From the NCBI RefSeq assembly GCF_001425785.1, contig NZ_LMDI01000032.1:1-55396 (forward strand): 55,396 nucleotides of DNA, written 5' to 3'. Under the pieces are notes generated by a model. That model was not told where the DNA came from and made no database searches. It saw only the letters and a program-made list of their open reading frames with translations. Each line of letters starts with the position of its first letter. Within the stretch, counting starts at the first letter, position 1. The DNA comes from Rhizobacter sp. Root1221. Lineage in GTDB: Bacteria; Pseudomonadota; Gammaproteobacteria; Burkholderiales; Burkholderiaceae_C. Below are positions 6,591 through 29,553 of the stretch, in pieces. The position numbers and the translations under genes were made by a program.

Positions 6591-6919
6591 GAATTGGATG
6601 CGGCGAAAACCATGGCCTTTTGAATTCGCTCATCGAAGGACGGGGGCCACGTCATGTGTGACCTCGGCTGACATATGGGGGCACCCATGGGCCGCGTGGA
6701 CCTCGATGCGGCCCCGCCCGACCACGTGCGCCGCGCTCATGCCCCGTTAACCGCCGTTCCTTCCGAATCGTCGAGTCTTTTCCGACTGCGCCGAGGGGTT
6801 TTCCGCTAAACGAATCGCCGATTCTCGGGATGTCTTGGTCGAGGAGGCCGCTTGCAGGCTTCGACGTACAGACAAACCGGCAGCCTCGTGGAGGAGGCTG
6901 CAGACAAGGACACAACGAC
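6591..6919. other. Upstream region of the giant RHS/RTX gene, no recognised gene
   Basis: This stretch before the giant gene holds no convincing gene. The motif GAGGAGGC occurs near 6841 and again near 6892, and AAGGA lies at 6906-6910, 9 bases before the ATG at 6920. The first two look like ribosome sites but lead to no better start. An in-frame ATG exists at 6830, but the 30 residues it would add are Arg/Gly-rich and unlike known homologue starts. I see no clear -35/-10 pair. Confidence 0.4.
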
Positions 6920-15900: not shown

Positions 15901-18900
15901 GATGGATGCCACCGGGGCTGTCACCCGCAGCGAGTACGACGAGGTCGGCAACCTGGTGCGCCAGACGCAGCTCGCCACCCGCGCGGAGAATGGCGCCGAT
16001 CCGGAAGGGCTGGGGCCCAGTGCGGCGGACCGTGTCTCCGTGTTCCTGTACGACATGGCTGGCCGCCTGGCTGCCACGACGGATCCGACCGGCGCGGTCA
16101 CGCAGAACACCTATGACGACAACGGTAACCTGGTGAAGCAGACGCGCTTTGCCACACCGATCGGCGCAGGGACCGACCCACGCATGGCCGTCGGCAACGC
16201 GGCCGATGACCGCGTGACGCAGTTCGAACACGACGGCGCCAACCGCACCATCAAGACGGTGGATGCGGACGGCTACGTGACGACCACCGCGTACGACGCG
16301 ATGGGCCGTGTCACGTCCAACACGCGCTACGCAGAGAAACCGGTGCTTGCAGGCGGTGAGCCACCGGTCACGCCGGGCAGGGATCAGACCACGACGTTCG
16401 CGTACGACGGCGCAGGCCGCTTGACGAGCACGACCGATGCGCTGAACCAAACGGAGCGCTGGACCTACGACGCCCGCGGCAACAAGCTCACCTTCACGAA
16501 CAAGAAGCAAAGCGTCTGGCACTACGAGTACGACGCCCGCGGCCGCATGACGAAGGAGACGTCGCCGCCAGTCACCCTCACGGAGGTGACGCAGAACGCC
16601 CGCGGTGACCTGGTGGAAAGCACCACCACGACCGACCATGCGCTCGTGACCACCATGGCCTATGACGCCCTTGGCAACCTGCTGAGTCGCACGGAAGCGA
16701 AGGACCGGCCGGAGGAGCGGACCACTTCCTACGCGTACGACGCTATGGGCCGCCAGATTCAGGTCACCCACCCGCCTGTGCGGGTCTACAACGAGGCCCT
16801 TGGCGCCGTGCTGGCGAATGGGGTGGGCGGCTCGGCCACGCGGGTGGAGGCAGGTGCGCAGGCCCTCACCACGAAGACCACCTACGACGCCTTCGGCGAC
16901 GCGGTGATCAACGTCGATGTGGCCGGCAGCGTGAGCTTCAAGGTGTACGACAAGGCTGGCCGCGTCCGTTTCGACGTGGATGCGCTGGGACAGGTAACCG
17001 AATACGCCCGGAACGCCTTCGGAGATGCGACCGAGATCATCCGGTACGGTCGGGCCCATGACGTGCCCCGGAATGGGGCAGGGGCGGTCATTGCCGACCA
17101 GCCGCTGACGGCTGTGGCACTGGAGACGGCCATTGCAGGGCCGCTGGGCAGCGGCGTGGTTCGCCGCATCGAGACCGAGTTCGATGCCTTCGGCCGGGCC
17201 CTCGTGGTCCGCGAGCCGGAGGTCTTCACGGTGGATTCGGCCGCGGACACCTCGGCCGAGGATGGCCGCAAGGTCACGCGCAACGAATACGATGCCTTCG
17301 GATCGCTGGTGCGCGTGAGTGCATTGCGGTCGGGCAACGAGTCCGCTGGAACCTGGGCGGACACGTACCAGTACTACGACGTGCTGGGCCGCTTGTCCGA
17401 CAAGGTGGACGCGTTGGGCTACCGCTCGACGAACACCTACGACGCGTTCGGCAATCTGGCATCCACCACCGACTTTGCTACCAAGCAGTTGGGCAGCTGG
17501 GACATTCACTCAGCTGGAACGGTCGTGGCGGACGACGATTTCGACCGCCGGGTCGAGTTCGTCTACGACGGGCTGAACCGCAAAGTCAAGGAGACGCGCA
17601 AGCTCCTGGAGTCGAGCAGCACGACGCAAGCGCTTGCTGGCGTCAGCACCCGGGGGGACGCAACCACCGAGTACGGCTATGACGCGGTGGGCAACCTTAC
17701 TCGAACCACCGACCCGTTGGGGCAGAGCACCTACAGCTACTTCGACGCGCTGGGGCGGGTGACGGCCGTCGCCGCGCCTTCCCGCGCGGGTGGCGATGGC
17801 ACCACGGTGCTCACCCCACTCTCCCTGTTCCGCCGCGACGCGTATGGCAACGTCGTCGTGAAGGTTGACCTGGCCAAGGGCGCGCGCGGCGCGGTCGGGG
17901 AGTTCCAGGGTGTCTCCAACAGGACACAGCTCGGGGCGCTGGTTGGTGATTTCGACGAGGCAGCCGATCGGACCACGCTCTCCGCCTACGACCTGCACGG
18001 CCACGCCGTTCAGTCGACCGATGCAGCCGGGTACAGCACCTTCAATTCGTACAACGCGCGTGGCCAGTTGGCCAAGACGTGGCAAGGTGTCACGTCGGGC
18101 ACGCCCACGCTCGATGCCTTTGGCAAGCTCAAGGCCGACAGCACGGTCTTCAAGGTGTACGAGTACGACGCGCTCGGTCAGTTGACCCACACGTACGACC
18201 CGGGGCCCGCGACCCAACTGGTCTACACAGGTACCCCGTCGGTGAGTGGTCGACTCACTGCGCGGACGATCGAGTCGTCCGCCACGGTGGAGATTGGCGA
18301 GACCCAGAACTATTTCACCCGCGGCAACGCCGTGCGCATCAGTTGGTACGACGTGGTCGACCCGGCGGGCGACAGCATCAGGGTGGAGTTCGACTACCTG
18401 ACCAGTGGCAGCAATGGCTACCTGGTGGCGGGCGAGGGACGCACCTACACGAAGGAATTCGCCGCCGCGGCATCGGTGAACGGCATCTACACCGACTGGT
18501 GGGATGGCGACATGGCCTCGTACGGCGTGTCGGCGATCCAGAGCGTGAGGGTGTGGCAAAAGGTCAACGGCACCTGGACCAAGCTGTGGGACGACGCCAC
18601 CGCCGGCACCGCGAGTGAGACGCCGACGGGGTACCTCACTACCGCCGCGGCGCCGCAGCTGATTGCCACGGACCTCGGCTACAACGCGTTTGGCGAAATG
18701 GTCAGCCGCGGTCTGCAGGGCGGCCAGCAGGAGTACTTCGACTACGATGCCGCCGGCCGCCTGTGGCGCACGAACTCGGGCGACGGCATCGACAAGATCT
18801 ACTTGTACGACCAACTCGGCAATGTCGTCTCGGAACTCCGCAGCGATGGCAGTTCCGGGCAGAACCGCGATCTGAAGCAGTTCGCTAGCGCCGAACAGGC

Positions 18901-21900
18901 CGTGGCATCGGGCACGCTGCGGCGAAGCGCCACGGTGTATGACGCGCTGGGGCGTGTGATCGAGACTCGCGGGGTCGATCGGGGGCCTGCGCGTTCCGGC
19001 GTGACGGGCCAGCCCCAGGCGCCGTCCGTCAACGTCTCGAGTTCGTCTGCACCAACGGTGGTGTACCTCGACGAGTCGGCATCGGTGGTCTGGTCGGGCA
19101 ACAACACCGTCGCGCTGGGTTGGGCGGACCTGAGTCACCTCGGTTCAGGCGACCTGAAGGTCGAGATCATTTACCAGACGGCGGTGTACCAATCCTCCCC
19201 TGGATCGGTGGATGAGTCGGGCAACTACGTGGGCGGCTACACGCCGGCTGAAACGCGCACGTTCGATGCGGTGTTCACCGCCGAGCAGGCCGCCACCGGC
19301 GTCTCGTTGACCTGGGCTGACACCGGCCTGGTGTCGACGGTCAGTGGCACCGATGAAAGTGGGACGCCTGTCATCCATGGTGGTGGGGTGGGCAGCGTCA
19401 GCGTCATCAGGATCTCCAAGCGCGACCCTGAAGGCAACTGGCAGGTGTTGCACGACGCGACGCCGGGGACTGCGGTCAAGGTCCTCGACGTGAGCGCACT
19501 GTTCGATCCGAACACGGAGCTCACGCTCGAGATCCGCGCTGCGGGCTCGCAGGGCGACTGGATCAAGTTCCCGCAGGATCCGGTTCGCTTTACCCAGGCA
19601 CTCCGGTTCAACCTGGCAGCATTGACCGAAGGCGACTACGAGTACCGGGTGCAGTCAAGCGTGGGCGACTCGGCGGCGAAGACCATCAACGCGGGTGTCA
19701 TTCGCCCGGACGGCACGGTCGCTTCGCATTTCAGCGCCAGCAACGCCACACGTCCCACGGTCGAGCAGATTCTCGACCGCTGGGGCAACGTCGTCAGCAT
19801 TTCGGATCCGCGCATGGCGCAGTGGGTCACCACCTATCGCTACAACGCGAACAACCAGGTGGTCTCGGAGTTGAAGCCCGACGGTGCCGAGACCAAGGTC
19901 TACTACGACGCCCTGGGCCATCAGGCGGCCACGCGTGACGGCAACGGAAACCTCAATGGCCAGGTGTTCGACGCCAGTGGCAACCTGGTCGAGGAGCACC
20001 ATGCCGACGGGGGCGTCGTGCGCCATGCGTACAACGCGTTCGGCGACAAGGTGCGCACCACCAACGCGGAAGGCAACCGGTCCGACCTGCAGGGGGCCGC
20101 GGCATCGGACGCCCTGGCGAAGAACACGACCACCTTCGCGTACGACAAGATGGGACGGCTCACCGAGACTCACCATGGGCGGGTGACGGTGGCGCGGGCA
20201 ACCGATGCGCCGGACCCGAGCCATCCCATGCAGATCGCCCTCACGAGCACCGAGCAGACCGACCTCAACGTGTATGACCAGGCCGGTCGCCGGCTGAGCC
20301 AGACCACCGGGAAATACGGCACGGGCACCGGTGAAACGCTGCGCTACCAGTACGACCTGGCCGGCCGTGTGGTGGAGACCATCCAGCCGGGTGGCGAGGC
20401 CTTCAAGATCCGCACCGTCTATGACGCGCAGGGCCACAAGATTGGCGAAGTGGACCAGAACGGCAATGCGTCCCAGTGGACGTACGACTACTTCGGCAAG
20501 ATGACCGCCCGCTCTGACTTGGGCGGGGCCACGTTCGGCTACAGCTACGACAAGGCGGGCCAGCTGGTGGAAACCACCAACAGCCGCTACGGCACCGGGG
20601 TGCAACTCACCAATCAGTACAACGCGGCGGGGGAACTGATCAAGGTCACCGACCACGCTTTGAACCAGGTGACGGAGTTCTCATACGACCTGGCCGGTCG
20701 CCACGTTCGCGAGAAGACGACGCAGGACGGCGTGGTCTACCAGGACAACACGATGGGCTACGACGAGGTGGGCCGGCTGCGCCACGTCAGTGACGGGCGC
20801 ATGAGCATCGACCTGGAGTACGACGACGCCGGCAACCGCACGCGGGTGCGCACCCACGTCAACGTGCCTACCCTGGCCGACCCCACCGTTGATGTGCCCA
20901 AGGACAGCGATCGGTACTTCACCTACGACGCCATGAACCGCCAGACCGGCGTGGAACTGGAGAAACGGGCCGACGGCACGATCGACTACGTGTACCAGTT
21001 CGATGCCAACGGGCACATCGTGGCCGGCACCTCGGGACACAAGGTCAGCTACGACCTCAACGGCAACCGTTCCTTCGACAAGTATCTCGGGACGAAGGTG
21101 AAGTACGTTCCGGCCGTGCCGCCCACCTATGAGGATGGGGGCGAGTCGGGCCCCATCATGGTGGATCCGGGGTCACCAGAGACTTACGTGGTGGATCACG
21201 ACGCGCCGAGCAAGGAGGTCACTGAGGCTTACGCGTACGACGCGTTGAACCGCCTGCTCAGCGTGACGCGCGATGGCATGGAGGTGGACTACCGGCAGTA
21301 CGACGTCGTGGGGCGTGTGATCACCACGGGGCCGCGCAACCTGCCGCCGGCTTACGCGGCGGCGATGAACAGCGGCCTGGCGTCTGGCGAGACCATCGGC
21401 CTCGAGTACCGCATCAACCGCTACGACGCCAACGGACGTCTGGCGCGCCAGCAGGTATTCAACGCCGACCGCAGCAAGTATCTCAACAGCATCGACTACA
21501 CCGGTTATGACGCAGCCGGCAACCTGAAGTCCTACAGCCTCACGAGCCCCAACAATTACACCAACGTCTATACCTACCAGCAGGCGAAGTTCGACGGCTA
21601 CAAGGAAGGTTCCGTTCACGGCGAGAGCGAACAGTTCCACGAAGGGACGACGGACAGCCACTACGACGTCAACGGCAACCTGGTCAGCGTTGACGACCAC
21701 ACGAAAAACGAGAACGACCGCAGCTTCGTCAACGACCTTGCAGGGCACGCGCTGTACGTGAAACAAGGCACGGCGGTGCAGCGCCAGGTGGTAGTCAATG
21801 GTGAGGTGCTGGGGCGTTACGGCGTGGGCATCAACGAGATGAATCCGCGCAACAGCGAGGGCAACCCGGTCTTCACCGAACTCGCGGACTTCAACTTTGG

Positions 21901-24178
21901 CTACCAGCCGATCACCGGGAACTACCCGACGGCGTCGGTGGGGTCGTACCAGGTCAAGGCGGGTGACTCGCTGCGCAGCATTGCGCGCCAGTCCTATGGT
22001 GACGAAGGGCTGTGGTATCGCATTGCCGAGACCAATGGCCTGAGCGGGGACCGTGACCTGCGTGTTGGCCAGACCATCAACATCCCGAGCGTGGTGGGGA
22101 CGGTCCGGAACAACTCGGAGACCTACAAGCCGTACGACCCGAGCAAGATCACCGGGGACACGACACCGAACATGCCGGTCCCGAACGGGGGCGGGGCTGG
22201 GTGTGGTGGCATTGGCATGCTGCTGGTGATCATCGTGGCGGTGGTGGTGACGGTGTTTACGGCAGGAGCGGCGGCTATGGCGATGGCTGGTGGCGTGAGC
22301 GCGTTCTCAACTGCCGCTACCGCTGGGACTTTGATGTCGACGATGGCTGCTGCAGGTACTGCCGCGATGACCGCAGGCACTTTGGTCGGCGCGGTCGCCG
22401 CAGGTATCGGCGCAGCGGTCGGCTCCATTGTCAGTCAAGGCGTTGCGATGGCTGTTGGGCTGCAAGAGGAGTTCAGCTGGAAGCAGGTGGGAATGTCTGC
22501 TCTTGGTGGGGCAGTGTCAGCCGCCCTACCCGGAGCCGCATTCGCTGGAGTGCCTGGAGGTCCAGCGGCACAGATGGCAGTGCGCGCGGCGGTCAGCAAT
22601 GCTGTGACGCAGGGCGTCGGTGTCGCGACTGGCTTGCAGGACAAGTTCAACTGGCGCGGGGTTGCTGCTTCTGCGGCGGCTGCCTTCGTGTCCCAAGGTT
22701 TGACGGACCTGGTAATGGGCGATCCGGTGTCCTGCCTTCCCGACGGGTCTATCGGTCGCGTCGGCGGGCTCGCTGGGGCATTGGGTGGGGGCGAGTTCGG
22801 CAAGATTGCGGGGTCGACCGTGCTGGGGTTGGCGGCGGGTGTGACTGCTGCAGCGGTCCGTGGCGGGAAAGTCGTTGTCCAACAAGTCACGGTCGATGCT
22901 TTTGGCAATGCGTTGGGGGATAGCCTCGCGGGGCAGATGAGTGCACCGGGGCAGACGGCTGAGCCGGACACTGTGGGGCCCATCAGTGCGGAGGAGCGTG
23001 CGTCCATCCTCGCGATGTTCAGCGATGGGCCGGGGGGCGAGGCAGTTCCTCTGCGCAGTTCTGTGTTCGGCAAGACCTTTGCTGAGGACCGTGCGGTTCG
23101 AGAGGTACTGAACAACCCCTACGGGCGTAGCTTTGGCCGCGGGGAGCCGGTAGCAACAGGCCCGGTCGAGTTCAATCCGCTGGATGGCTTCATGAAGTGG
23201 GAGCTGACCGGCGAGAAGCCCATTTATGACTTCGGAGACCCGCTGGAGTCGCTCGGGCGTCCTGGCGAATTGACGGCTAGCAAAGGCGGCGGGAGCACAA
23301 GTCGAACTGGAGGCGGTGGAAGTACCAGATTGCCTGTCCAGATGGCCGTCAATGCACGGGCAGCGACTTTGGCGGATGCTATGGGTGAAGTCAGCGGCCT
23401 CGTGCCAGAGGCAACCCGAGACATCAAGCAAATCGTTGCGATATTGGACGAAGCAAAGAGGCTCGAACTGCTGGAGAAGGTTCAAGGCGCACTGCGCGAG
23501 CGGTTGGGCGTACGGGTTATGCCCTCGCCTGGAGCTCTTGGCGTCTCGCCAAGCCTCTCAGCGGACGCTGATGGTGCGGGGCGTACTCGATATGACACGA
23601 GCGAGTTGATTGACCATTACACTGACGCGTTGCGAAAGGTCGGATTGGCCCAACAAGGGGCCATTGAGCTTGATTACCGGACCTTCGAAATCAAGACCAT
23701 CGGCAATCAGAGACTCACGCCTTCTCAGTACCAGGCAGAGAACGAAGTCCGATACCAGAAGGCGTTCGAGTCGGCGGTGGAGCTTGGTGAGGCGAGGTAT
23801 GAGTCCGGCAAGCTTCCGTATCCGAAAGACATGCCCAAGCAACTGCAGGTGGGACTTTTTGCTGACGGTGTTGCGAGAAATGTGCTGGTTGATTACAACA
23901 AAACGCTCGGTGTTCCTGAAGGACCAGGGCAAGTTATCAGCCTCAATCGCTGGGCGTACGATATGCAAGGCAGTGGCAATTACGTCCGGCCTGACGTTCT
24001 GTTTGATTTCGGTCCTAAGCAGCGGTCATGGTTGGATGGAAAGACGTCGCTAACTGGGTCGCAAACGACTACTCAGTTCGAAAACTTTTACAAGTACACA
24101 GGGGCTACGTCGGGCAAGGTGATAACACGCAATGGCCCGGTACCCATTGCGCACCCCAATACGTGGACTCGGAGATAG
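6920..24178 (+). CDS. Giant RHS/YD-repeat protein with internal RTX block, LysM domain and C-terminal nuclease-like toxin domain
   Basis: One uninterrupted frame of about 5752 residues. Order: N-terminal segment with ASGNLVLQNRDDLLAGRG (about 39-56), first YD-repeat region (60-830), linker, RTX-like calcium-binding block (947-2167), second YD region (2244-4960) with two beta-rich insertions, LysM domain (about 5009-5056), hydrophobic Gly/Ala-rich segment (5100-5175), and a variable C-terminus. YD repeats in RHS proteins form a hollow shell around a toxin; LysM binds peptidoglycan; RTX repeats fold on calcium outside the cell. The tip contains RPDVLFDFG and WLDGKTS (Asp5692, Asp5706, Lys5708), a PD-(D/E)xK-like nuclease signature. 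I read it as a contact or secreted polymorphic toxin with the 109-residue gene 4 bases downstream as immunity. No signal peptide, VgrG, PAAR or type I exporter is visible, so the export route is unknown. Start 6920 is chosen from AAGGA spacing and homologue-like N-terminus. Confidence 0.88.
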   Translation: MVAIVSGNTLGVSLTSLATLGQRGGLSGSAGQGRSGELVYVNAASGNLVLQNRDDLLAGRGRDAVSVRTYNSQGQSTDDNGDNWSHGIFLQQLQLNGTRNAVDSTLVRTDRDGAQAVYTFDMASGRYVTAAGAGAFDTISYDEASGQYAWLDGNAGDLERYEAATGRLLQLVDTSGNTLSYAYDNAGRLASVTTASGEATYLDYSGNNLAQLRTVVMTDTGSQTLTRTRYTYDTADRLSSVIVDLSPEDNGVADGNVYVTTYTYDGTSKRVATVGQSDGTSLSIWYVQVGSEYRVASLTDGSNQTTLFDYDTVTHRTTVTDPLGLLTVYGHDANGQLSSVTAPSVGGVSQVTSFGYDTDGNLVTIEDPAGRAVEMGYDDRGNQVMQRDGVGNTVSRVYDSRNQLVSETVYLVPDADGDGPARPSAPQSTHYVYDAAGRNRLRFVITAEGRVTEHRYDGFGNRIETLQYSGERYEADDLAIDAVPAELSMEYWARVQDPSRTGHVVRTFDFRGQVERERAFGVADENGVVDVIAQTTRYVYDQAGRLLTSIGANGGLSTYTYDGLGRVLTFTDAAEAVTLNAYDDANQRTSTRLDNGLVTTSTFDAAGRLTSVVQSGDAGATLGETRYHYDADGRLVMSTDATGVSRWSLHDDAGRKVGDVDADGTLTEYVYHANNLLAGTIIYATRMQTALLVDAGGNPEAVSLADLRPAGSAANQREWRIYDAANRLVQTVDAEGYVTQTTYDGASRVIAVTRYDTPVAVPAASLSPILAAFTVSQNVAKDRTTRTFHDGDGRVVGELDAENYYTHYEYDGAGRLIAKTKFASPMVGALVDAHTPPAIIAEGTTPPATAYVRERTQRASPLPPTAGTGSAGVVDAKTLLAKLEAFKAVDQIGAFTDLVRLVREAGPTLKAAGFDATALLRRWVRALPAGSPVFETLESLRVRETGEGADAGDILFGSTEGDQVRGYEGDDVIAGGLGSDTLGGGAGNDTLDGGVGSNDFLEGGLGADTYLYGYGYGDDVITITPEEGPSLATSDVIQLGVGVQPGDVALSRSYGYTGMYDLTLTLLATGERLTIEGYYGNAEWIRESRGIRAIRFSDGTEWDALDVDNRVALGTDEEDTLDSVAPGTLQGGRANDSLTGTYDAEAVYGGRGNDTLQGSGGSDVVVGGSGNDTLHGDMRDDYYGGDDTLDGGSGDDYLFGASGRDVYVFGIGSGRDTIGVDDRGWNMDRYANGDTLRLGDGIKESDLLFGRDSQGGLLISLRNSSDSILVENYFVDLENPQDWYGGFAKGLEYIEFADGTVWNARQIQSRLRAPVLKAEPWEIGLVGGEGADSILAFGGYETLDGAAGNDTLSGMSGDDVYEFGLGSGRDVIIDRAEWSGYDTIRFREPILPADVTLRRVGDSLEVIFSNRDMVTVEKHFLPWAYPSNDIEAIEFADGTVWDATEIANRASYTTNLPDVVRDGSYDGGEGADSLAGGDEANLLVGGAGRDSLDGENGNDTLDGGIGSDWLHGGVGADAYRFNRGGGRDTIDNISGEASQLGHLTGDVLALGGGIVASDVVLSRVGDDLVLSLIGTDDSVTFSRYFVGDLSGEDIRVETIRFHDGSEWSVDDVEARLLVDAGGGAGNDLLDGATGSNMFEFERGWGNDTIANFHGASTASNQIRFAADVSEGDVRVSRVGDTLIIVRKNTSDRIEVRSFFSNRAGAGSGASEILFGNSTAWDYETVVARVTATTDGDDRIEGDAVLAGGKGDDTLVGHAGSDAIDGGSGDDLLDGASGNDTYRFGWGSGRDTIVAGGAGQGDFDVVEFSEGIEPGDLRIDVRQGAVIVTLGNGVDRLTIGTVRDGVQGPLQVREFRFFDGSVWDEAKIRAVATTATADDAEVEGLGLDDTLTGSFWSDTLAGLDGDDVLLGGHGFDMLQGGAGDDTLDGGTGDDSLDGGTGRNTYYLGRGSGHDEANFIHADGSTFHVIQLAADVRPSEVLVEYDGSGARFTIIGTNDYIDGYDLPDEVHFADGTIWDRAAMDEAATRSTWGLSDQASEGVAYDYDAGNDVFVGSPASDTFFAGTGDDTFVFGPASGRDSIQLDPSAWGSGDSIQIAEGVQPADLIFSRDRWSDSGLVIAIRNAPRAILQINSYLSTNESAEPPVIRFADGTEWTRADVLQRLVTVRDDTIVLNNADARASGQLLLRQVGNDLEITGLGSQLSSRLGGWYAANTTHVDQYAGGGTAILGTAGDADLVDASLQGRDQTTRLIYDALGQLVGEVDAENYLTEHVYNEAGQRTKSIRYSRPLTVVVQPGMKLFDMRPSYDAQARVSSLTYDLLGRVYEEVDAEGTITQYTYDNVGHLVSTKRGIYTEESRTNTAHYDQQGRLVGELSGEGSRRLYSGQTQEEIDLVWAQFGLKHAYDAAGRRTSTTDANGHRTVFYYDVDGRIRFTVNALGEVEERRYNALNQLEATVQLNNRVPAETLATMTGGVADEDVEQAIAGFYDLARDSVTGYTYTVRGQVESTTDALHHSTAVKYNAFGQVERTTSDSDNLGGELVQESSYDRRGLQTASATDPDGINATASTRYDAFGRAVRSVDANGNVTQQSFDRVGRVVQTLDATNAVRSSTWDAFDRVLSTTDALGHTTTYAYSDLGRSVIVTTPEGVSVKTVHNQHGQTQDITDADGNVTQFVYDGDGRLTLTVDAKGATAQNMYDVSGRLTETRDARGVITSYTYDAVNRVLTRTVDPQQLNLATTYAYDAKGRQHSVTDPRGVVTTVSYDLAGHVLKQVVDAEGAALTTEYTYDPAGRVLTVTDPSQHVTQYSYDKLGRRTGSVVDLGGENIATGYDYDNNGNLLFSTDALGKVTRFAYDAMGRLVFTVDPVGGLTHVEYDAEGRAVRTTVYAKPVPNAASLPTQLAADTIAALLPALATPGRDAITAQRYDGDGRVTFTVDATGAVVEFRYDARGNVSERIAYATAIDFAAWDGGSDPSPVAGALDRHVFTRYDQLNRAVRVMDATGAVTRSEYDEVGNLVRQTQLATRAENGADPEGLGPSAADRVSVFLYDMAGRLAATTDPTGAVTQNTYDDNGNLVKQTRFATPIGAGTDPRMAVGNAADDRVTQFEHDGANRTIKTVDADGYVTTTAYDAMGRVTSNTRYAEKPVLAGGEPPVTPGRDQTTTFAYDGAGRLTSTTDALNQTERWTYDARGNKLTFTNKKQSVWHYEYDARGRMTKETSPPVTLTEVTQNARGDLVESTTTTDHALVTTMAYDALGNLLSRTEAKDRPEERTTSYAYDAMGRQIQVTHPPVRVYNEALGAVLANGVGGSATRVEAGAQALTTKTTYDAFGDAVINVDVAGSVSFKVYDKAGRVRFDVDALGQVTEYARNAFGDATEIIRYGRAHDVPRNGAGAVIADQPLTAVALETAIAGPLGSGVVRRIETEFDAFGRALVVREPEVFTVDSAADTSAEDGRKVTRNEYDAFGSLVRVSALRSGNESAGTWADTYQYYDVLGRLSDKVDALGYRSTNTYDAFGNLASTTDFATKQLGSWDIHSAGTVVADDDFDRRVEFVYDGLNRKVKETRKLLESSSTTQALAGVSTRGDATTEYGYDAVGNLTRTTDPLGQSTYSYFDALGRVTAVAAPSRAGGDGTTVLTPLSLFRRDAYGNVVVKVDLAKGARGAVGEFQGVSNRTQLGALVGDFDEAADRTTLSAYDLHGHAVQSTDAAGYSTFNSYNARGQLAKTWQGVTSGTPTLDAFGKLKADSTVFKVYEYDALGQLTHTYDPGPATQLVYTGTPSVSGRLTARTIESSATVEIGETQNYFTRGNAVRISWYDVVDPAGDSIRVEFDYLTSGSNGYLVAGEGRTYTKEFAAAASVNGIYTDWWDGDMASYGVSAIQSVRVWQKVNGTWTKLWDDATAGTASETPTGYLTTAAAPQLIATDLGYNAFGEMVSRGLQGGQQEYFDYDAAGRLWRTNSGDGIDKIYLYDQLGNVVSELRSDGSSGQNRDLKQFASAEQAVASGTLRRSATVYDALGRVIETRGVDRGPARSGVTGQPQAPSVNVSSSSAPTVVYLDESASVVWSGNNTVALGWADLSHLGSGDLKVEIIYQTAVYQSSPGSVDESGNYVGGYTPAETRTFDAVFTAEQAATGVSLTWADTGLVSTVSGTDESGTPVIHGGGVGSVSVIRISKRDPEGNWQVLHDATPGTAVKVLDVSALFDPNTELTLEIRAAGSQGDWIKFPQDPVRFTQALRFNLAALTEGDYEYRVQSSVGDSAAKTINAGVIRPDGTVASHFSASNATRPTVEQILDRWGNVVSISDPRMAQWVTTYRYNANNQVVSELKPDGAETKVYYDALGHQAATRDGNGNLNGQVFDASGNLVEEHHADGGVVRHAYNAFGDKVRTTNAEGNRSDLQGAAASDALAKNTTTFAYDKMGRLTETHHGRVTVARATDAPDPSHPMQIALTSTEQTDLNVYDQAGRRLSQTTGKYGTGTGETLRYQYDLAGRVVETIQPGGEAFKIRTVYDAQGHKIGEVDQNGNASQWTYDYFGKMTARSDLGGATFGYSYDKAGQLVETTNSRYGTGVQLTNQYNAAGELIKVTDHALNQVTEFSYDLAGRHVREKTTQDGVVYQDNTMGYDEVGRLRHVSDGRMSIDLEYDDAGNRTRVRTHVNVPTLADPTVDVPKDSDRYFTYDAMNRQTGVELEKRADGTIDYVYQFDANGHIVAGTSGHKVSYDLNGNRSFDKYLGTKVKYVPAVPPTYEDGGESGPIMVDPGSPETYVVDHDAPSKEVTEAYAYDALNRLLSVTRDGMEVDYRQYDVVGRVITTGPRNLPPAYAAAMNSGLASGETIGLEYRINRYDANGRLARQQVFNADRSKYLNSIDYTGYDAAGNLKSYSLTSPNNYTNVYTYQQAKFDGYKEGSVHGESEQFHEGTTDSHYDVNGNLVSVDDHTKNENDRSFVNDLAGHALYVKQGTAVQRQVVVNGEVLGRYGVGINEMNPRNSEGNPVFTELADFNFGYQPITGNYPTASVGSYQVKAGDSLRSIARQSYGDEGLWYRIAETNGLSGDRDLRVGQTINIPSVVGTVRNNSETYKPYDPSKITGDTTPNMPVPNGGGAGCGGIGMLLVIIVAVVVTVFTAGAAAMAMAGGVSAFSTAATAGTLMSTMAAAGTAAMTAGTLVGAVAAGIGAAVGSIVSQGVAMAVGLQEEFSWKQVGMSALGGAVSAALPGAAFAGVPGGPAAQMAVRAAVSNAVTQGVGVATGLQDKFNWRGVAASAAAAFVSQGLTDLVMGDPVSCLPDGSIGRVGGLAGALGGGEFGKIAGSTVLGLAAGVTAAAVRGGKVVVQQVTVDAFGNALGDSLAGQMSAPGQTAEPDTVGPISAEERASILAMFSDGPGGEAVPLRSSVFGKTFAEDRAVREVLNNPYGRSFGRGEPVATGPVEFNPLDGFMKWELTGEKPIYDFGDPLESLGRPGELTASKGGGSTSRTGGGGSTRLPVQMAVNARAATLADAMGEVSGLVPEATRDIKQIVAILDEAKRLELLEKVQGALRERLGVRVMPSPGALGVSPSLSADADGAGRTRYDTSELIDHYTDALRKVGLAQQGAIELDYRTFEIKTIGNQRLTPSQYQAENEVRYQKAFESAVELGEARYESGKLPYPKDMPKQLQVGLFADGVARNVLVDYNKTLGVPEGPGQVISLNRWAYDMQGSGNYVRPDVLFDFGPKQRSWLDGKTSLTGSQTTTQFENFYKYTGATSGKVITRNGPVPIAHPNTWTRR
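7100..9399 (+). repeat. First YD/RHS repeat region
   Basis: Protein repeats of the RHS type with the core pattern Y-D-x-x-G-R-L, for example YAYDNAGRLASV, YTYDTADRLSSV, YDDRGNQV and YTYDGLGRVLTF, spaced about 20-25 residues. Such repeats build the beta-sheet shell of RHS/teneurin-type proteins. The last unit before the RTX block reads DRTTRTFHDGDGRVVGELDA and closely matches the first unit after it. Confidence 0.88.
9760..13420 (+). repeat. RTX-like calcium-binding block, eight units, inserted between YD repeats
   Basis: Eight alternating modules. Each starts with nonapeptide-like RTX repeats of the GGxGxDxLxGG type (for example GGAGNDTLDGG, GGSGNDTLHGD, GGAGDDTLDGG) and continues with a domain of the haemolysin calcium-binding-related kind that ends in a phrase such as IRFSDGTEWDALDV, IEFADGTVW, FHDGSEW, FADGTIWD or FADGTEWTRADV. 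The repeats lie near 9760-9950, 10313-10540, 10895-11040, 11311-11480, 11780-11870, 12122-12300, 12568-12785 and 13043-13160. Calcium folding after export is the known behaviour of such repeats. Confidence 0.9.
18220..18650 (+). other. Beta-rich insertion domain A in the second YD region
   Basis: About 140 residues without YD motifs, with alternating hydrophobic strands (VRISWYDVVDPAGDSIRVEF; YGVSAIQSVRVWQ) and the closing phrase WTKLWDDATAGTA. It resembles insertion B at 19020-19670, which has VALGWADLSHLGSGDLKVEI and WQVLHDATPGTA at matching places. The two look like paralogous surface domains grafted into the RHS shell. No named family is recognised. Confidence 0.55.
19020..19670 (+). other. 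Beta-rich insertion domain B in the second YD region
   Basis: About 215 residues lacking YD motifs, with strand-like segments, an acidic loop and the closing phrase WQVLHDATPGTA that parallels WTKLWDDATAGTA in insertion A. A further strand-rich part (LTLEIRAAGSQGDWIKF) follows before the YD repeats resume. Probably a duplicated binding module; ligand unknown. Confidence 0.5.
21944..22090 (+). other. LysM peptidoglycan-binding domain within the giant protein
   Basis: The segment YQVKAGDSLRSIARQSYGDE continues to LRVGQTINIPSV, the classic LysM pattern (Y-x-V-x-x-G-D-S-L at the start, L-x-x-G-Q-x-I-x-I-P at the end). LysM domains bind N-acetylglucosamine-containing glycans such as peptidoglycan. 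It lies between the YD shell and the hydrophobic segment starting near 22217. Confidence 0.9.
23585..24178 (+). other. Variable C-terminal toxin domain, PD-(D/E)xK nuclease-like
   Basis: The last 200 or so residues carry neither YD nor RTX features. A helical start (SELIDHYTDALRKVGL) leads to IELDYRTFEIKTIGN and then to RPDV and WLDGKTS, with Asp5692, Asp5706 and Lys5708 placed as in PD-(D/E)xK nucleases. The coding sequence here and in the next gene is visibly poorer in G/C than the repeat core: rows 24181-24240 and 24361-24420 count 33/60 and 30/60 G+C. This fits exchange of toxin tips. The domain boundaries are approximate. Confidence 0.55.
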
Positions 24179-24182
24179 AGCG

Positions 24183-24512
24183 ATGAAAAACGCAAAGGCG
24201 GTCAAGCAGTTCTTCCACACGCTGGTGGGGCTACAAGGAGGCATTGCACTGTTCCCTGCAGGCATCAACGAGTTCCTCTTTACAGCAGGCTACCCCCGCA
24301 TCTATGAAGAGCTGGAGCACATCCGGAGCGACCTGGCTGAACTCGGACTTTATGATTTGCTCAACGAAGCTGTCACACAGTCTGAAGTGCTGGCTCGTGA
24401 AGGAAAATATGACGATGCGGAGATGCTGATTCTGGAGGCTGGTCGAAAACTATCGACCGCCTCTGGGGTGGAGGACGACCTTCAACGGATGTACAAGTCA
24501 GCGAATGATTAG
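24183..24512 (+). CDS. Probable immunity protein for the RHS/RTX toxin tip
   Basis: A 109-residue cytosolic-looking protein beginning MKNAKAVKQFFHTLVGLQGG and continuing as a mostly helical, acidic chain (YEELEHIRSDLAELGLYDLL). No known domain is recognised. The start lies 4 bases after the stop of the toxin gene, the usual spacing of toxin-immunity pairs, and the gene shares the lower G+C of the toxin tip. The in-frame ATG at 24132 would overlap the toxin gene by 47 bases, so 24183 is preferred. Identification rests on position, size, acidity and composition, not on similarity. Confidence 0.65.
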   Translation: MKNAKAVKQFFHTLVGLQGGIALFPAGINEFLFTAGYPRIYEELEHIRSDLAELGLYDLLNEAVTQSEVLAREGKYDDAEMLILEAGRKLSTASGVEDDLQRMYKSAND

Positions 24513-24867: not shown

Positions 24868-25464
24868 TCAATCCACCGGCAACGCCCAGAACTTGAATAC
24901 CAGCACCCGCCGATCGGACGGGCACGTGCGCGACACCGACCGGCCCACATGCAGCGGGTCGCCCGCGATCTTCATGACACGGCCCGGCTTGGGCCTGACG
25001 GCGGCGATGACCTCGTGGTCGTCGTCAAACACGAGGGTTTCGCCCGCCCAGGCGATGTCCCACCGGGCATTGCAGTAGACGAGCACGGTGTGGTGCCGGG
25101 GCCGTGCCGCCGCCGCACCGATGTCGCGGTGCACCCCGCCCTCGGTGCCGAAGGCGTTGGCGCTGAGCAGGCAGTCGTAGAGCCGCAGCGGGTGCGGGTA
25201 GCTGGCCTTGATCAGGTTCCAGCAGCGGGTGATGCACTGCAGGTTGTCGTCCAGCTCGGCCAGCTGCGGTTCCACGTCAGCCCGGTCGCCGTCGTCGGAG
25301 ACGGCGATGGGGTAGTACCAGTGCACGTCCAGGTCGTGAGAGCCGTAGCGTTCCTTGCGGTTGAGGAAGTACATGGGCATCCATGACATCGTCTCGATCA
25401 GCTCGTCCCGCAGTGCGTCGTCGAGCAGGTCGTCGAGCACCTGGACACTTGGCCCGGTCAACAT
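24868..25464 (-). CDS. 2-oxoglutarate/Fe(II)-dependent oxygenase of the peptide cluster
   Basis: A 198-residue protein with the double-stranded beta-helix signature of 2OG/Fe(II) oxygenases: HxD as VHRDIG (His112, Asp114), a distal His in DPLHVGRS (His172) and an Arg in SDRRVLVFKF (Arg185/186) that would bind 2-oxoglutarate. Before it, NAFGTEGG and the strand HHTVLVYCN fit the prolyl-hydroxylase-like fold. Such enzymes hydroxylate, desaturate or epimerise peptides and small molecules using O2 and 2-oxoglutarate. It is the last gene of the minus-strand cluster, 156 bases after the candidate precursor, and is likely a tailoring enzyme acting on the modified peptide. The start is ATG 25464, with GGGTGA about 7 bases upstream as a weak ribosome site. 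Confidence 0.8.
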   Translation of the reverse strand: MLTGPSVQVLDDLLDDALRDELIETMSWMPMYFLNRKERYGSHDLDVHWYYPIAVSDDGDRADVEPQLAELDDNLQCITRCWNLIKASYPHPLRLYDCLLSANAFGTEGGVHRDIGAAAARPRHHTVLVYCNARWDIAWAGETLVFDDDHEVIAAVRPKPGRVMKIAGDPLHVGRSVSRTCPSDRRVLVFKFWALPVD

Positions 25465-25504
25465 GGCAGTCTCACCCTTGGAAAACGTGAATCACCGGGG
25501 CCTT

Positions 25505-25516
25505 GTGCCCGGGCAC
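25505..25516. other. Perfect 12-base palindrome in the precursor-oxygenase gap
   Basis: GTGCCCGGGCAC is self-complementary and lies in the 156-base gap between the precursor and oxygenase genes. It could be an operator or part of a structured RNA that lowers read-through into the oxygenase gene. No T-run follows on the minus strand. Confidence 0.35.
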
Positions 25517-25620
25517 GCCGGCAGGCCGGTTGGCGATCCGGGAACAACGGCACGAGCCGGCCGGGGCAATCCGGGCGGCTCGCGCCATGTCGGAGTCTCG
25601 GTGACCCCGGAAGGGCCCGC

Positions 25621-25827
25621 TCACTCGCTGTCGCGCTCGCGGCCGACGCCGCCGCCGTCATTGATCAGGTCACCGCCGCTGCTGGAGCTGAGCGGCAGGC
25701 CGGGGCGGTGCGGCAGCCGCACGCGCTTGACGGCCGACCACCGGTTATCCGGCGACGGGGATGCCTTGGCGGTGGTGGCACTGGCGTTCGGGCCGATGCC
25801 GGTCATGGAGACTTGGTTGGCTTTCAT
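25621..25827 (-). CDS. Candidate RiPP precursor peptide, 68 residues
   Basis: A 68-residue peptide starting MKANQVSMTGIGPNASATTA and ending GGGVGRERDSE. It has no cysteine. An N-terminal half rich in Ala/Ser/Thr is followed by a basic stretch (WSAVKRVRLPHRPG), then a run of four serines (residues 47-50), two glycines and DLINDGGG. AAAGG ends 5 bases before ATG 25827, a good ribosome site, and the gene starts 18 bases after the YcaO fusion ends. Size, composition and position between two modifying enzymes are what mark it as the substrate. The Ser/Gly segment is the most obvious place for azoline formation, but the core/leader boundary cannot be fixed. It carries no graspetide-type TxKxPSD motif. 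It might instead be an unrelated small protein. Confidence 0.62.
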   Translation of the reverse strand: MKANQVSMTGIGPNASATTAKASPSPDNRWSAVKRVRLPHRPGLPLSSSSGGDLINDGGGVGRERDSE

Positions 25828-25845
25828 GGTCACCTTTCAGGTGGG

Positions 25846-28143
25846 TTAAGGAAACGGGTGAGGGAACAGGGCGTCGGGGTGTACCGCGCCCAACGTGGCG
25901 AGCGGCTCCCGGCCGAGGCCGAACGAAATGGGGATGAGGCCTGGCACAAGGACCCGGGCGACCCGAAGTGGGGTGCGGCCCTGGTCCACGTGATGCTTGT
26001 CCGGCGTGATGTCGACGGCGAACGATGCCAGGCCGGACTGTCCGAAGCGCCGCACCATGTCGTCGAGCGAGCGATTTGCCAGCGGGCGCGGCCAGCGCGT
26101 GGTCCATCTGGGTTCTTCAGGAAAAAGGACGGCATCGGCTCGCCGGAAGTGCGGCGCCAGGCCGTAGATCGAGAAGTGGTCTTCAGGGGTGACGGCGGCA
26201 TCCGGGGTCGCGACCGTGGGTGCGTGGCCGTGCAGCCACGCGTAGACACGGGACTCGGTTTCATCCAGCGCACCATCCACCGCCTGCGTGAAGTCGGTGC
26301 CAGCCGCAGCGCCCAGCGTGGTGAAGTGCCGGGTCTCGTGCTGCACCGACACCAGCGCGACGTGCAACCATGGGCTGTGCAGCCGCTGCAGCAACACCCG
26401 GCAACCGGTGTCCTCGATGGCTTGCACGCGCTCCCTCAGCGCCCGAGGCCATTGCTTCACCGGCACCGCATCGCCCGGCGTCTGCGCCAGCCAATGCCGC
26501 ATGAAGGCGTCCCGTTCGATCACCTCGCGCATCGCCCGGGTGGTTGCGTCCTTGAGGTCGACGCCTGCGGCGCAACCTGAACTGGTTTCCTGCGTGAACG
26601 GGCGATCGGCGGCAACACCGGCCTGGCGCAGGGCCGACCGGGCGAAGACCAGCTCGGCCAGCACGTGCACCTTCTTGCCTGTGGCCAGGTTGCGCGCCTG
26701 CACCCAGGCGTGCGGGCGGGCCGGGTCGAACCGCTCAAACGGGAAACCGGGCCGGTCGTACTGCTCGGCGGTGTAGATGGGGTGGGTGGTCGGGTCGATG
26801 GCCTTGGGGATGTCGGCCAAGGCACCTTCGACGATATTCCGGGGCTGGCAGTAGCCTTCGCGCTCGATGGCCTCGGCGAGTGCCTTGCGCATCGCGAGCA
26901 TCGGGTCGGCATCGCGGCCCCAGGTGTGATGCCGTTCGTCGTGGCCGTCCATGATCTTCGCGCGAGCCAGGTGGAAGCTCATCTTGAAGTACGGGGACGC
27001 AGACTCCACCCAGGCGAAATCGAAGGTGGGTGAATCTGGCACCCGATCCAGCTGGCGCGCCGTGGCGCGGGCACCGAAAAGTGCGGTGCCCAGCATCACG
27101 TGGCGCTCGTCCAGGGCGCACAGCGCCAAGGACGGGCGTTCGTAGTAGCCGCCGAGCGTGGCTTGGCCGATGCCGAGGGCGTTCGCACTCAGCGCCACGT
27201 TGTGCAGGGCGGCGCCAGCTTCCATGAAAAGGTATTGCAACGAGCGGTTGCGGTATCGCATGGCGCCCACCACCGGGTCCGCCGCGACGAAGATCACACC
27301 GGTGGCATACGTGAGTTGCCAGGGCTTCGTGTTCGTGAGCGGCAGGGTGTCGAGGCACTCGTTGACACAAGTCAGTGCCACGAGCCGCTCGCCCGGGTAA
27401 CTGACGCGGTAGACGCCGGGCGTGTACCGGCCCACCGTGCGGCGGAGGGCCACGTAGATCTGCAGCAGGTGCATGGCACCGGCCGAGGCCAACGTGCGCT
27501 GCGGAATCAGCGTACCTGAACGCGGGTGGGTTGCGCTCACCACGCCGGCAGCGGACCACAGCAGTCGATGCAGTGCCTTCTCGGAGACGGGTTTGTCGTC
27601 GTAGGTGTAGAGGCTGGTGCGATCCGCGAAGAACGGGTCCAGCGGCGCGTTCGTGACGCGCACGCTGTGGCGCGGCAACGCCGACGGGGCGTTCTCGTCG
27701 TTCCACAGGAAGCGCGGCGCGATCCGGTCTGTCACCGGCACGGGGGCGGCCAGGCCGAACGGCGAGAACTGGAAGCCGTAACGCACCGCGTGGGCACAGG
27801 CGAGGCTCCCGTCGATCAATGCCCCTTGCTCGAACAGGAAGCCCATGAATGCCGCGAACTCTTCCCGCTGGTCCGTGGGCGTGATGCGGCCCAGGACCTC
27901 GTCGACCGTGAGCGTGCCGTCGCACAAGGAAAACAGCAGGTCCAGCAGCGCGGTGGGCGCCGCCACCTCGACGTCGGCGCCGGGTGTCCTGACCACCAGG
28001 ATGCCATCGTCGCCGTTCTGGCGGATGCAGGTGGCTCCGGCCAGCATCGGGGTGAGCCGGTCGGTGGCGCCTATCGTGTCCAGCACGGATTGTGGTACCG
28101 AGTCGTTGAAGACGGCCAGCGGCAACCGGGTGACCTGCTTCAT
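25846..28143 (-). CDS. Fusion of recognition-like domain, SagB-type dehydrogenase and YcaO cyclodehydratase
   Basis: A 765-residue, three-part enzyme. Residues 55-112 (LLDLLFSLCDGTLTVDEVLG ... FLFEQGALID) look like the PqqD-like winged helix used for leader-peptide recognition. Residues 157-360 are a SagB-type, FMN-dependent nitroreductase (RTSLYTYDDKPVS; MEAGAALHNVALSANALGIG; LGGYYERPSL; VMLGTALFG). Residues 410-765 are YcaO: KALAEAIERE, TSSGCAAGVDLKDATTRAM, REVIERDAF (ATP/Mg ligands) and the Pro-rich end PHPFP. YcaO proteins use ATP to activate the backbone for azoline (or thioamide) formation; SagB oxidises azolines to azoles. The two are usually separate genes. Start ATG 28143 overlaps the ATP-grasp stop (ATGA). 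No E1/ThiF-like partner is present, so the N-terminal domain probably replaces it. Confidence 0.87.
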   Translation of the reverse strand: MKQVTRLPLAVFNDSVPQSVLDTIGATDRLTPMLAGATCIRQNGDDGILVVRTPGADVEVAAPTALLDLLFSLCDGTLTVDEVLGRITPTDQREEFAAFMGFLFEQGALIDGSLACAHAVRYGFQFSPFGLAAPVPVTDRIAPRFLWNDENAPSALPRHSVRVTNAPLDPFFADRTSLYTYDDKPVSEKALHRLLWSAAGVVSATHPRSGTLIPQRTLASAGAMHLLQIYVALRRTVGRYTPGVYRVSYPGERLVALTCVNECLDTLPLTNTKPWQLTYATGVIFVAADPVVGAMRYRNRSLQYLFMEAGAALHNVALSANALGIGQATLGGYYERPSLALCALDERHVMLGTALFGARATARQLDRVPDSPTFDFAWVESASPYFKMSFHLARAKIMDGHDERHHTWGRDADPMLAMRKALAEAIEREGYCQPRNIVEGALADIPKAIDPTTHPIYTAEQYDRPGFPFERFDPARPHAWVQARNLATGKKVHVLAELVFARSALRQAGVAADRPFTQETSSGCAAGVDLKDATTRAMREVIERDAFMRHWLAQTPGDAVPVKQWPRALRERVQAIEDTGCRVLLQRLHSPWLHVALVSVQHETRHFTTLGAAAGTDFTQAVDGALDETESRVYAWLHGHAPTVATPDAAVTPEDHFSIYGLAPHFRRADAVLFPEEPRWTTRWPRPLANRSLDDMVRRFGQSGLASFAVDITPDKHHVDQGRTPLRVARVLVPGLIPISFGLGREPLATLGAVHPDALFPHPFP

Positions 28144-29219
28144 GTGGACTCCGCGGGCGAGGACTCCGTCGGCGCTGCGGCGCGTGCCGCGCGCACCACC
28201 TCCGCGAACGCACCTGGCGGGGTGTTCGCCGGGGTGCCGAACAGCGAAGACAGCATCTCGAAGTAGGCCGTGGGCGGGCAGACCGGGTTCGAGTTCAACT
28301 CGAGCCACCAGACCTTGCCGCTTGCGTCGAGCACACCGTCCATCGCACACAGCACGGGCGCGTTCAGTTCCGCCCGTAGTGCGGCGGCGAGCCAGGCGCC
28401 CGCCTGGAGCAACTGCTCACGCTGCGCGTCAGGCATGCGAGGCCAGACGTTGTCCTGCGACTCGGTGTTGCCTTGCTGTGTGAAGCGCCGACCGTACCGG
28501 TAGTCGATCCAGACCGGGTGCCCCTCGGCAGGAACGGCACCCGGATCCTCGCCTTGGTACGCCAGGCATCCGCTGATCTGGTCCCGCTCGCCATAGCTTT
28601 CCCAGGTTTCCCCGATCTCTGCCAGGCGGCGTGTCACGAGCGTGTGCAGATCGGTGCGACCGTCGCCGACCACCTCTGCGTAGGATTGGCTCTGGACATG
28701 GACGGGCTGAGCGCCCCAGAACCACGCCTTGATGATCTGCCCGGGCGTGAACGCCTCTGCGAACAAGGTACCCCGTGCCCGCCCATCGGACAACGCAGCA
28801 GGTATCTCAGGCAACTGTCCTTGCCGGAACGGCCCCGCCAGCTGGTAGCCGAAGGATCCGACCGAGCGTTTCAGGATGAAGTCCGTCGTGGCATCGCCAC
28901 CCGAGGGCCAGTGGGCCGGCGTGGGCAGGCCGGCCGCCGCGATGGCCTGCTTGAACACGAGTTTGTCCGTGGACATCGCCAGGCGCAACGCCTGGTATGG
29001 ACGCCAGCCGATGAACGAGGTGGATTTGGGCAGCAGCGTGTTCACATGCAGCATCCGCCCATCCGATTCGTGGAGGAATTGGGGTAGGAGCCGGTAGTAG
29101 CGGTTGCGCGCCTTGACCTCCATCTCGAAGCTCGCGATGTCGAGGCGAGCCTCTCCTCCATGGGCGTCCGCCCAGGCTTTGATGGCCCGGAAGTGGTTCA
29201 TGGTGATGAGGCTGAACAT
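28140..29219 (-). CDS. ATP-grasp ligase of the peptide cluster
   Basis: A 359-residue ATP-grasp protein. Seen: MSTDKLVFKQAIAAAGLPTP (84-101, the entry helix), FILKRSVGSFGYQLAGPF (114-131, ATP-binding Lys and Gly loop), AEVVGDGRTDLHTLV (181-195, as in cyanophycin-synthetase-type enzymes) and WWLELNSNP (304-312, metal-binding Glu/Asn). ATP-grasp enzymes form acyl-phosphates and couple them to amines, hydroxyls or thiols; in peptide pathways they add residues or close lactone or lactam rings. It is the first gene of the cluster and is translationally coupled to the YcaO fusion. The start at 29219 has no clear ribosome site; an internal ATG at 29201 is an alternative. Its substrate, probably the precursor peptide or a small partner, is unknown. 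Confidence 0.8.
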   Translation of the reverse strand: MFSLITMNHFRAIKAWADAHGGEARLDIASFEMEVKARNRYYRLLPQFLHESDGRMLHVNTLLPKSTSFIGWRPYQALRLAMSTDKLVFKQAIAAAGLPTPAHWPSGGDATTDFILKRSVGSFGYQLAGPFRQGQLPEIPAALSDGRARGTLFAEAFTPGQIIKAWFWGAQPVHVQSQSYAEVVGDGRTDLHTLVTRRLAEIGETWESYGERDQISGCLAYQGEDPGAVPAEGHPVWIDYRYGRRFTQQGNTESQDNVWPRMPDAQREQLLQAGAWLAAALRAELNAPVLCAMDGVLDASGKVWWLELNSNPVCPPTAYFEMLSSLFGTPANTPPGAFAEVVRAARAAAPTESSPAEST

Positions 29220-29553
29220 GGTGAATTCGTGTACGAGTTGGATGGGGATCCGCCTGGGCGGACATCACGGCTCGGCAGGGTGAGCCGTGCGGCGTGAGCT
29301 CGCTGCACGGTCTTCTCCCGACCATCGCCTCAACCAGTACATCCCAAGGTTCTGCTGGCGGTTAAGCAAATCCCAGTGAGGTAGAGGGTCTTTCCGAACG
29401 CACGGAGTCTAGTGCGCCCTTGAAACGTCTTGTATGTGGGCCGGGATGATTTCTCGACTGGGCATTCGCGGGCTGCGACAAACTGCACGAATTACGCGTC
29501 CAGGCCTTTGCATGACGATCGGCTGCGTTTGAATGCCTTCGTGCTTTGATGGC
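29220..29553. other. Intergenic region between peptide cluster and LysR gene
   Basis: No gene is supported here. It should hold the promoter of the minus-strand peptide cluster, but I can name no convincing -35/-10 pair. Base composition is more mixed than in the flanking genes, with AT-richer stretches near 29340-29420. It also contains the 3' side of the LysR gene, which is transcribed away from the cluster start, so no terminator could be assigned with confidence. Confidence 0.4.

Follow-up and report, generated by a model that had tools for sequence, protein, structure and literature searches.

A RiPP-type operon in Rhizobacter and its link with giant Rhs genes and a flagellar-type gene cluster

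Described loci resemble the one considered here in two respects. A 2022 survey of ATP-grasp ligases (PMC8939145) places, in the portion drawn on here, the ligases of its branch 6 with SagB-like enzymes and, in other loci, with YcaO and TfuA; it calls the YcaO association previously unreported and regards these loci as possibly lying outside the graspetides. Enterobacterial flag-2 loci, in the sections used here of a 2020 study (PMC6993521), are discussed as possible secretion systems, with an Rhs gene in that of one strain. The window, by which we mean the whole stretch of 55,396 nucleotides that was analysed (contig NZ_LMDI01000032.1 of Rhizobacter sp. Root1221), carries an operon of an ATP-grasp ligase, a SagB-YcaO fusion, a short peptide and a 2-oxoglutarate (2OG)/Fe(II) oxygenase. 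A first-pass annotation took this for a stand-alone locus for a ribosomally synthesised and post-translationally modified peptide (RiPP) with no characterised pathway of the same composition. The latter statement needs narrowing, given the 2022 report of ATP-grasp with SagB-like enzymes and with YcaO; of the link with Rhs and flagellar genes we found no report. The main text of PMC8939145 contains none of the terms Rhs, flagell-, Hint, Pandoraea, betaproteobacteria and Burkholderia, and no paper on an Rhs-flagellar-RiPP link was found in the open-licence literature of PMC. The reading that we favour, with somewhat better than even confidence, is that these genes are a maturation operon of RiPP type working for a regulon whose giant secreted repeat proteins are Rhs and in some cases RTX.

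All four genes are read from the minus strand, ATP-grasp first and then SagB-YcaO, the peptide and the oxygenase:

28140-29219, minus strand: ATP-grasp ligase, operon gene 1 (359 aa)
25846-28143, minus strand: fusion of RiPP recognition element (RRE)-like, nitroreductase/SagB and YcaO domains (765 aa)
25621-25827, minus strand: precursor-like peptide gene (68 aa), conserved half RWSAVKRVRLPHRPGLPLSSSSGGD
24868-25464, minus strand: 2OG-Fe(II) oxygenase (198 aa)

The SagB-YcaO start and the ATP-grasp stop overlap as ATGA, and the peptide gene begins 18 bases past the SagB-YcaO stop; strand, coupling and gap are all as first annotated.

The fusion matches YcaO (PF02624, E = 2.5e-41) and nitroreductase (PF00881, 6.8e-9) over the Pfam cut-offs, and stays below those of NCBIfam for TIGR03604 (TOMM_cyclo_SagD) and TIGR03605 (antibiot_sagB; 57.5 bits vs 78.4). 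Its YcaO part has the ATP-binding motifs and the Pro-containing C-terminus of azol(in)e-forming enzymes, and K420, A423, E424, E427, R428, E540, E543, R544, E628 and the HPF end are invariant in 16 aligned rows. The PqqD model had no match in the genome of the window, and the search for an RRE therefore turned to structure, which places an RRE-like domain at the N-terminus of the fusion, as in the thiazole/oxazole-modified microcins (TOMMs). SagB-type dehydrogenases have a Lys-Tyr pair. Here Tyr297 is invariant in the 16 rows and is preceded by Arg in the window and eight other rows, by Lys in six and by Asn in one, Arg-Tyr being found in the SagB of the free-peptide clade and Lys-Tyr in most other relatives.

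As a single sequence the ATP-grasp protein has a weak Pfam match (PF14398, E = 0.011), and phmmer, run up to E = 1, matched it to none of the solved structures. The 16-row profile lies nearest to GshAB (9.7e-8) and cyanophycin synthetase (1.4e-7), with RimK-like enzymes and tubulin-tyrosine ligase also near; 31 residues are invariant in the alignment, including K117, E155, D294, E307 and N309, and the predicted structure has a predicted local distance difference test score of 86.9. Searches of Pfam and NCBIfam up to E = 1 gave no graspetide model, the coverage of that class in both libraries being unchecked. The oxygenase falls just below the cut-off of 2OG-FeII_Oxy_3 (26.2 bits vs 27), and its H112, D114, H172 and R179 are invariant in eight rows. 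Two other assignments were rejected: FlmC, to which there is a weak NCBIfam match (6e-13; 49 bits vs a cut-off of 240) and on which a literature search found nothing, and a defence island, for which PADLOC gave no strong match (best 1.9e-5, to a generic 2OG model).

A scan of genome contigs for the fusion gave 17 loci, 15 of them in Burkholderiales or near relatives and two being records of one Solirubrobacter strain (loci, genomes and contigs are cited below by our numbers L, G and C). An ATP-grasp gene lies within a few kb of the fusion in all 15 of the former and in neither of the latter, and the oxygenase recurs in eight loci besides the window. Fusions with none of the other three genes, which the first-pass annotation had named as evidence against a common pathway, were met only in the two records of that distant strain, at about 30% identity. 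Together with the RRE-like domain, the YcaO ATP motifs, the SagB domain and the conserved short peptide, this recurrence of ATP-grasp and oxygenase agrees with the annotation's view of the locus as RiPP-type. An ATP-grasp profile picked out two genomes in an order sample of 399 and 12 in a family sample of the same size, both counts including the window genome, and the family sample contributed nine new loci (L035-L043), so that 25 distinct ATP-grasp loci, window included, were examined. A YcaO match is present in 21 of these (window, L002-L016, L035-L039), without a SagB match in four (L014, L015, L016, L038), and none was found in the stretches of L040-L043, the first three of which are near contig ends. 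Nine have the complete four-gene set (window, L002, L003, L004, L005, L007, L013, L035 and L036). In L013 (Ramlibacter montanisoli, 10001-13079) SagB-YcaO is split over two frames and there is a stop in the oxygenase frame, with peptide and ATP-grasp open, and for these frame breaks the copy may be broken or mis-sequenced. L006 has no oxygenase, L037 has by eye a radical-SAM-like gene in its place, and the fusion is found in none of ten other genomes of the window's own genus at 1e-30.

Some cassettes are built differently. L015, L016 and L038 form a separate branch with ATP-grasp and YcaO and no fused SagB, in which (partly by eye) there are also cystathionine-lyase-like pyridoxal phosphate enzymes, an FkbM-like methyltransferase and more oxygenase-like genes. 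Achromobacter sp. UMC71 (L007, 7677-12268) carries a tandem pair of SagB-YcaO genes, and in G498 (L039, 10441-11193) a second ATP-grasp-like gene is seen by eye beside that of the cassette.

Free precursor genes stand beside the fusion in the window and nine other loci (L002-L007, L013, L035, L036). The N-terminal half of the peptide is variable and the C-terminal half is its most conserved part, with the pattern W-x-[AV]-x-(3-4)-R-L-P-H-[KR]-x-G-x-P-L, after which come a stretch rich in Ser, Gly and Cys and then Asp; the end is PLSSSSGGD-like, in keeping with the short Cys/Ser/Thr-rich precursors of TOMMs, and the Ser/Cys/Gly pattern and the tail differ among loci. Synonymous and non-synonymous differences over 24 codons of the conserved half number 8 vs 6 and 10 vs 6, and 3 vs 3 in the closest pair. 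A chance open reading frame (ORF) is ruled out by the nine other loci and the codon pattern, and the peptide is a true gene family. Its first description as Cys-free is right for the window copy and too narrow for the family, as there is Cys in the end of the peptides of L003, L004, L005, L013 and L035. With the precursor profile, no free peptide gene rose above noise in L008-L011, L014-L016, L038 and L040-L043.

A giant gene lies close to the operon in the window, on the opposite strand and convergent with it:

6920-24178, plus strand: giant Rhs/YD-repeat protein gene with inserted RTX repeats and LysM-like and hydrophobic stretches
24183-24512, plus strand: small gene directly 3' of rhs, a candidate immunity gene by position only

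The Rhs ORF opens at 6830, and the conserved N-terminus begins at 6920. Within this protein a block of about 1,000 residues with RTX calcium-binding repeats is set amid the YD repeats, a single chain thus uniting two classes of secreted giant. For the product of the small gene Pfam gave no match at a threshold of 1e-5.

An Rhs or RTX giant occurs on the cassette contig in 17 of the 25 ATP-grasp loci, the giant Rhs frames mostly having 4,000-6,300 aa. Rhs lies within about 20 kb in ten (window, L002, L005, L006, L007, L015, L016, L036, L039, L042) and an RTX giant in two (L004, L035); in L008-L011 Rhs is some 25-30 kb off, past a flagellar cluster (for L008 and L010 as deduced from the lengths of contigs and frames), and in L038 a giant is 11-45 kb from the cassette. 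In two loci an RTX gene is in line with the full operon, stopping 10 bases before ATP-grasp on the same strand in L035 and separated by a 22-base gap in L004. An Rhs-like tail seen by eye beside the ATP-grasp of L040 was not borne out by tblastn and is not counted.

The flagellar genes form a cluster of their own. In L009/L044-L045 and L011/L049, SagB-YcaO and ATP-grasp are followed by the flagellar-type cluster, a Hint-peptide gene and rhs. The cluster reads fliQ fliR flhB flhA flgF flgG flgA flgH flgI flgB flgC fliE fliF fliG fliH fliI fliJ and, further on, flgD flgE fliM fliN fliO fliP fliA and tetratricopeptide repeat (TPR) genes; in L011 fliQ was not seen and a transposase stands there. 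In L049 Pfam supports FliF, FliI, FliP, FliN, FlgE, two rod proteins and the sigma factor, so that basal body, hook, export gate and ATPase are represented, and gives no match for the presumed FliG; the other names were assigned by position and by BLAST within the set. The window genome (G000) has a homologous set on contig C31 (L072, L092-L094; 15481-37946), where the whole cluster from fliQ to fliA, with TPR and glycosyltransferase genes, lies beside a second giant rhs and no flagellin match was found. The FliF of the cluster is short, 477-554 aa, vs 568-683 aa for canonical FliF (one truncated frame, 379). The short-FliF cluster was present in 23 of 26 genomes searched, and in none of the 23 is there a Flagellin_N match inside it. 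In three genomes (G530, G597 and G802) Flagellin_N has no match anywhere, and the cluster is therefore hardly a swimming organ there. The cluster's TPR proteins are weakly like the type III secretion chaperones SctY and SycD, and a small TPR gene is found at the Rhs start in L056, L057, L058, L061, L068 and L073, including genomes free of the peptide operon.

Among the 399 genomes of the family sample, ATP-grasp was found in 12, the Rhs N-terminus in 21 and short FliF in 19, by searches in which each genome was scored on no more than its few top first-look candidates, so that some may have been missed. Rhs accompanies ATP-grasp in 8 of 12 carriers vs 13 of 387 others (Fisher 6e-9; 7.6e-8 without the window genome), short FliF accompanies ATP-grasp in 8 of 12 vs 11 of 387 (2e-9; 3.2e-8) and Rhs accompanies short FliF in 17 of 19 vs 4 of 380 (3e-24; 5.2e-23), all p-values that ignore relatedness, the 12 carriers being of 12 genera. 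The locus is thus not the stand-alone unit first annotated: its occurrence is statistically associated with that of giant Rhs genes, and two of the loci have the operon in line with a giant RTX gene. Where the neighbours of the Rhs N-terminus were read in 12 genomes without ATP-grasp, there were flagellar genes in six (G001, G541, G597, G623, G687, G779) and none in the stretch read in the other six (G437, G468, G585, G653, G782, G786).

A canonical sigma28 site upstream of the operon was rejected, the best having 9 of 13 matches vs 7-9 in shuffles. Another form, TAAAC...GGATGTA, was first seen by a pattern scan (10 sites vs 2-5 in shuffles), and at least 9 of its 11 positions match upstream of 11 of 23 Rhs starts vs 2 of 573 other genes. 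A matrix was trained on 20 Rhs sites only, chosen as the best sites in those upstreams, and its two best sites on both strands of the window are these:

6807-6834, plus strand: promoter-like site of rhs, score 24.9, one of the sites used in training, 113 bases before the rhs ATG (6920)
29338-29365, minus strand: promoter-like site of the operon, score 17.8, outside the training set, starting 146 bases upstream of the ATP-grasp ATG

The next best score 11.6 and 11.5, and none of the three inner genes of the operon is preceded by a site of this kind. In the upstreams of 572 other genes the top score, 28.3, is that of the gene opening an apparent ATP-grasp operon, in L038, and the next is 9.2. 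A score above 9.2 is reached by six of 20 cassette starts (window, L002, L006, L007, L036 and, barely, L003; window, L002 and L003 are relatives, so that their sites are not independent) and by four of five starts of Hint genes, L012 failing. Since 16 flagellin upstreams reach at most 5.8, and eight of them have at least 10 of 12 matches to the consensus TAAA-N14-16-GCCGATAA, the motif is not the common flagellin promoter. It would be read, we infer, by the product of the cluster's fliA-like gene.

Five loci encode a Hint-fused protein of about 250 aa: Herbaspirillum (L012), G498 (L039), Pandoraea (L045), Paraburkholderia (L050) and Trinickia (L075). Its N-terminus, which resembles the free peptides and reads R...W-[SE]-[IVL]-x-x-x-P-x-x-[RH]...LG...C, precedes a Hint-like domain, for which one of three proteins scanned (L039) has below-cut-off Pfam matches to Vint, Hint_2 and Hint; there are no Hint matches in Pfam for L012 and L050 or in NCBIfam for L012 and L039. 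A profile of the family finds the intein-type chain 8w20 (7.3e-5) from position 58, and C58, D122 and H124 are invariant in five rows. As the free and Hint-fused peptides share, by eye and in the alignment, W and one Pro only, their common origin is likely and not proven. The Hint-fused peptide gene is immediately upstream of rhs in L045 and L050, and such Hint fusions point to processing or activation at the C-terminal end of the peptide.

Within the favoured reading the RRE would bind the peptide, YcaO would convert Ser, Thr or Cys in the Gly/Ser/Cys-rich end into azolines by cyclodehydration, with possible oxidation of these by SagB, ATP-grasp would activate a carboxylate of the peptide or its target for an amide or ester link, and the 2OG oxygenase would hydroxylate a residue. 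Modified peptide and Rhs giant would be made together from a common sigma28-like promoter type, the peptide serving as partner of the giant, co-delivered with it or attached to it. The sequences themselves show the gene set, the RRE-like fold, retained active-site motifs, the conserved peptide, the linkage to Rhs giants and the flagellin-free cluster and, for some of the loci, the common promoter-like motif; the chemical steps, the sigma factor, the way of export and the partnership are proposals built on them. A fuller version, in which the operon is the peptide-tailoring arm of a secretion system not described so far, a flagellum-derived, filament-less export machine with its own sigma28-like factor and promoter, delivering the giant Rhs with, or joined to, the heterocyclised, ligated and hydroxylated peptide, Hint-released in some genomes, we put forward tentatively, as possible rather than expected. 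The oxazole chemistry of the first-pass annotation is unproven, and in SagB of the free-peptide clade an Arg-Tyr pair stands in place of the Lys-Tyr seen in most other relatives.

The same enzymes could make an ordinary antibacterial or signalling RiPP of azole type, ligated and oxidised, its nearness to rhs and flagellar genes being that of shared islands of competition genes. We hold this to be rather unlikely, though it accounts for the RRE, YcaO, SagB, short peptide and recurring tailoring genes, and for L013 and L043, which have no Rhs giant nearby; Rhs loci are moreover hot spots of accessory genes. Against it stand the genome-level co-occurrence, a common promoter-like motif that is absent from the 16 flagellin upstreams and nearly absent from the 572 others, the Hint-fused peptide directly before rhs and the RTX giant in line. 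In the usual RiPP the leader is conserved and the core variable, whereas this peptide is most conserved in its C-terminal half. That conservation, with the variable N-terminal half, would suit a small cofactor or pigment, of the kind of pyrroloquinoline quinone, made for use by some enzyme; the varying Ser/Cys/Gly pattern and tail, and the lack of a linked candidate enzyme, leave this very improbable.

Alternatively, the operon might modify the giant itself, with the peptide as a tag or carrier joined to Rhs or RTX by ATP-grasp (by Hint in relatives) in a conjugation-like reaction. The nearest profiles of the ligase are amide-forming enzymes, L042 has ATP-grasp with an Rhs gene and no YcaO match in its stretch, and Hint domains (Hedgehog, bacterial intein-like) can activate the C-terminus of the part before them. 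However, Hint protein and ATP-grasp coexist in L012 and L039, so that one is not a simple replacement of the other, and we judge this reading unlikely.

The favoured reading of an operon serving secreted giants has points against it too. The window SagB is without the Lys of the Lys-Tyr pair, and an E1-like or ocin-ThiF partner was not noticed among the cassette genes, no search having been aimed at one. No giant was found in the stretch read in 8 of 25 loci (L003, L012, L013, L014, L037, L040, L041, L043); of these, L003 is at a contig edge, L014 is on a contig of 4.7 kb, L037 has Rhs on another contig, and in L012 there are a piece resembling an adhesin, to which RTX matches over a short length, genes that by eye form a type I secretion set, and an HlyC-type acyltransferase. 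The orientation of the cassette to rhs is inconsistent, being convergent, divergent or distant. The site is missing at 14 of 20 cassette starts (three in L005, L008-L011, L013, L015, L016, the ATP-grasp starts of L038 and L039, L042 and L043), and the matrix finds nothing above 10.2 on contig C31, which has the cluster and another rhs. To the relatedness left out of the p-values are added G472, with FliF and no Rhs N-terminus, G499, with Rhs and no FliF, and three genomes (G451, G501, G512) with ATP-grasp and neither of these. In G501 an RTX giant is present and FliF has no match at all, and the common companion may therefore be the giant protein rather than the machine.

If true, this reading would join RiPP biosynthesis, Rhs polymorphic proteins and flagellar-type secretion, so far separate fields, and would give a testable answer to the question of how very large Rhs proteins might leave the cell. 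It would also make the promoter motif a predictor of further regulon genes, and would give in vitro chemistry a new precursor family whose enzymes are at hand.

Compared with known systems, the locus is like the TOMMs (SagBCD, McbBCD and TruD type) in its YcaO with ATP motifs and Pro-containing C-terminus, its SagB domain and its RRE, and unlike them in having RRE, SagB and YcaO in a single chain, an ATP-grasp, a 2OG oxygenase, an Arg-Tyr SagB and a conserved core-like half, with no separate partner protein noticed in the cassette, though no aimed search was made. It shares the ATP-grasp ligase and the short peptide gene with the graspetides (omega-ester/amide), but has YcaO and SagB and no graspetide-model match, its nearest solved relatives being GshAB and cyanophycin synthetase. 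By gene company it resembles branch 6 as presented in the portion of PMC8939145 used here, where ATP-grasp is beside a SagB-like nitroreductase and YcaO is in other loci. With flag-2, as far as the sections drawn on of PMC6993521 go, the cluster has in common a second flagellar locus, possible secretion and, in one strain, Rhs cargo, whereas flag-2 has the flagellin LafA and the cluster here combines no flagellin match with a regular Rhs giant and a linked RiPP-type operon. What may be new is the combination of such an operon with Rhs and with a flagellar-type machine that has no filament.

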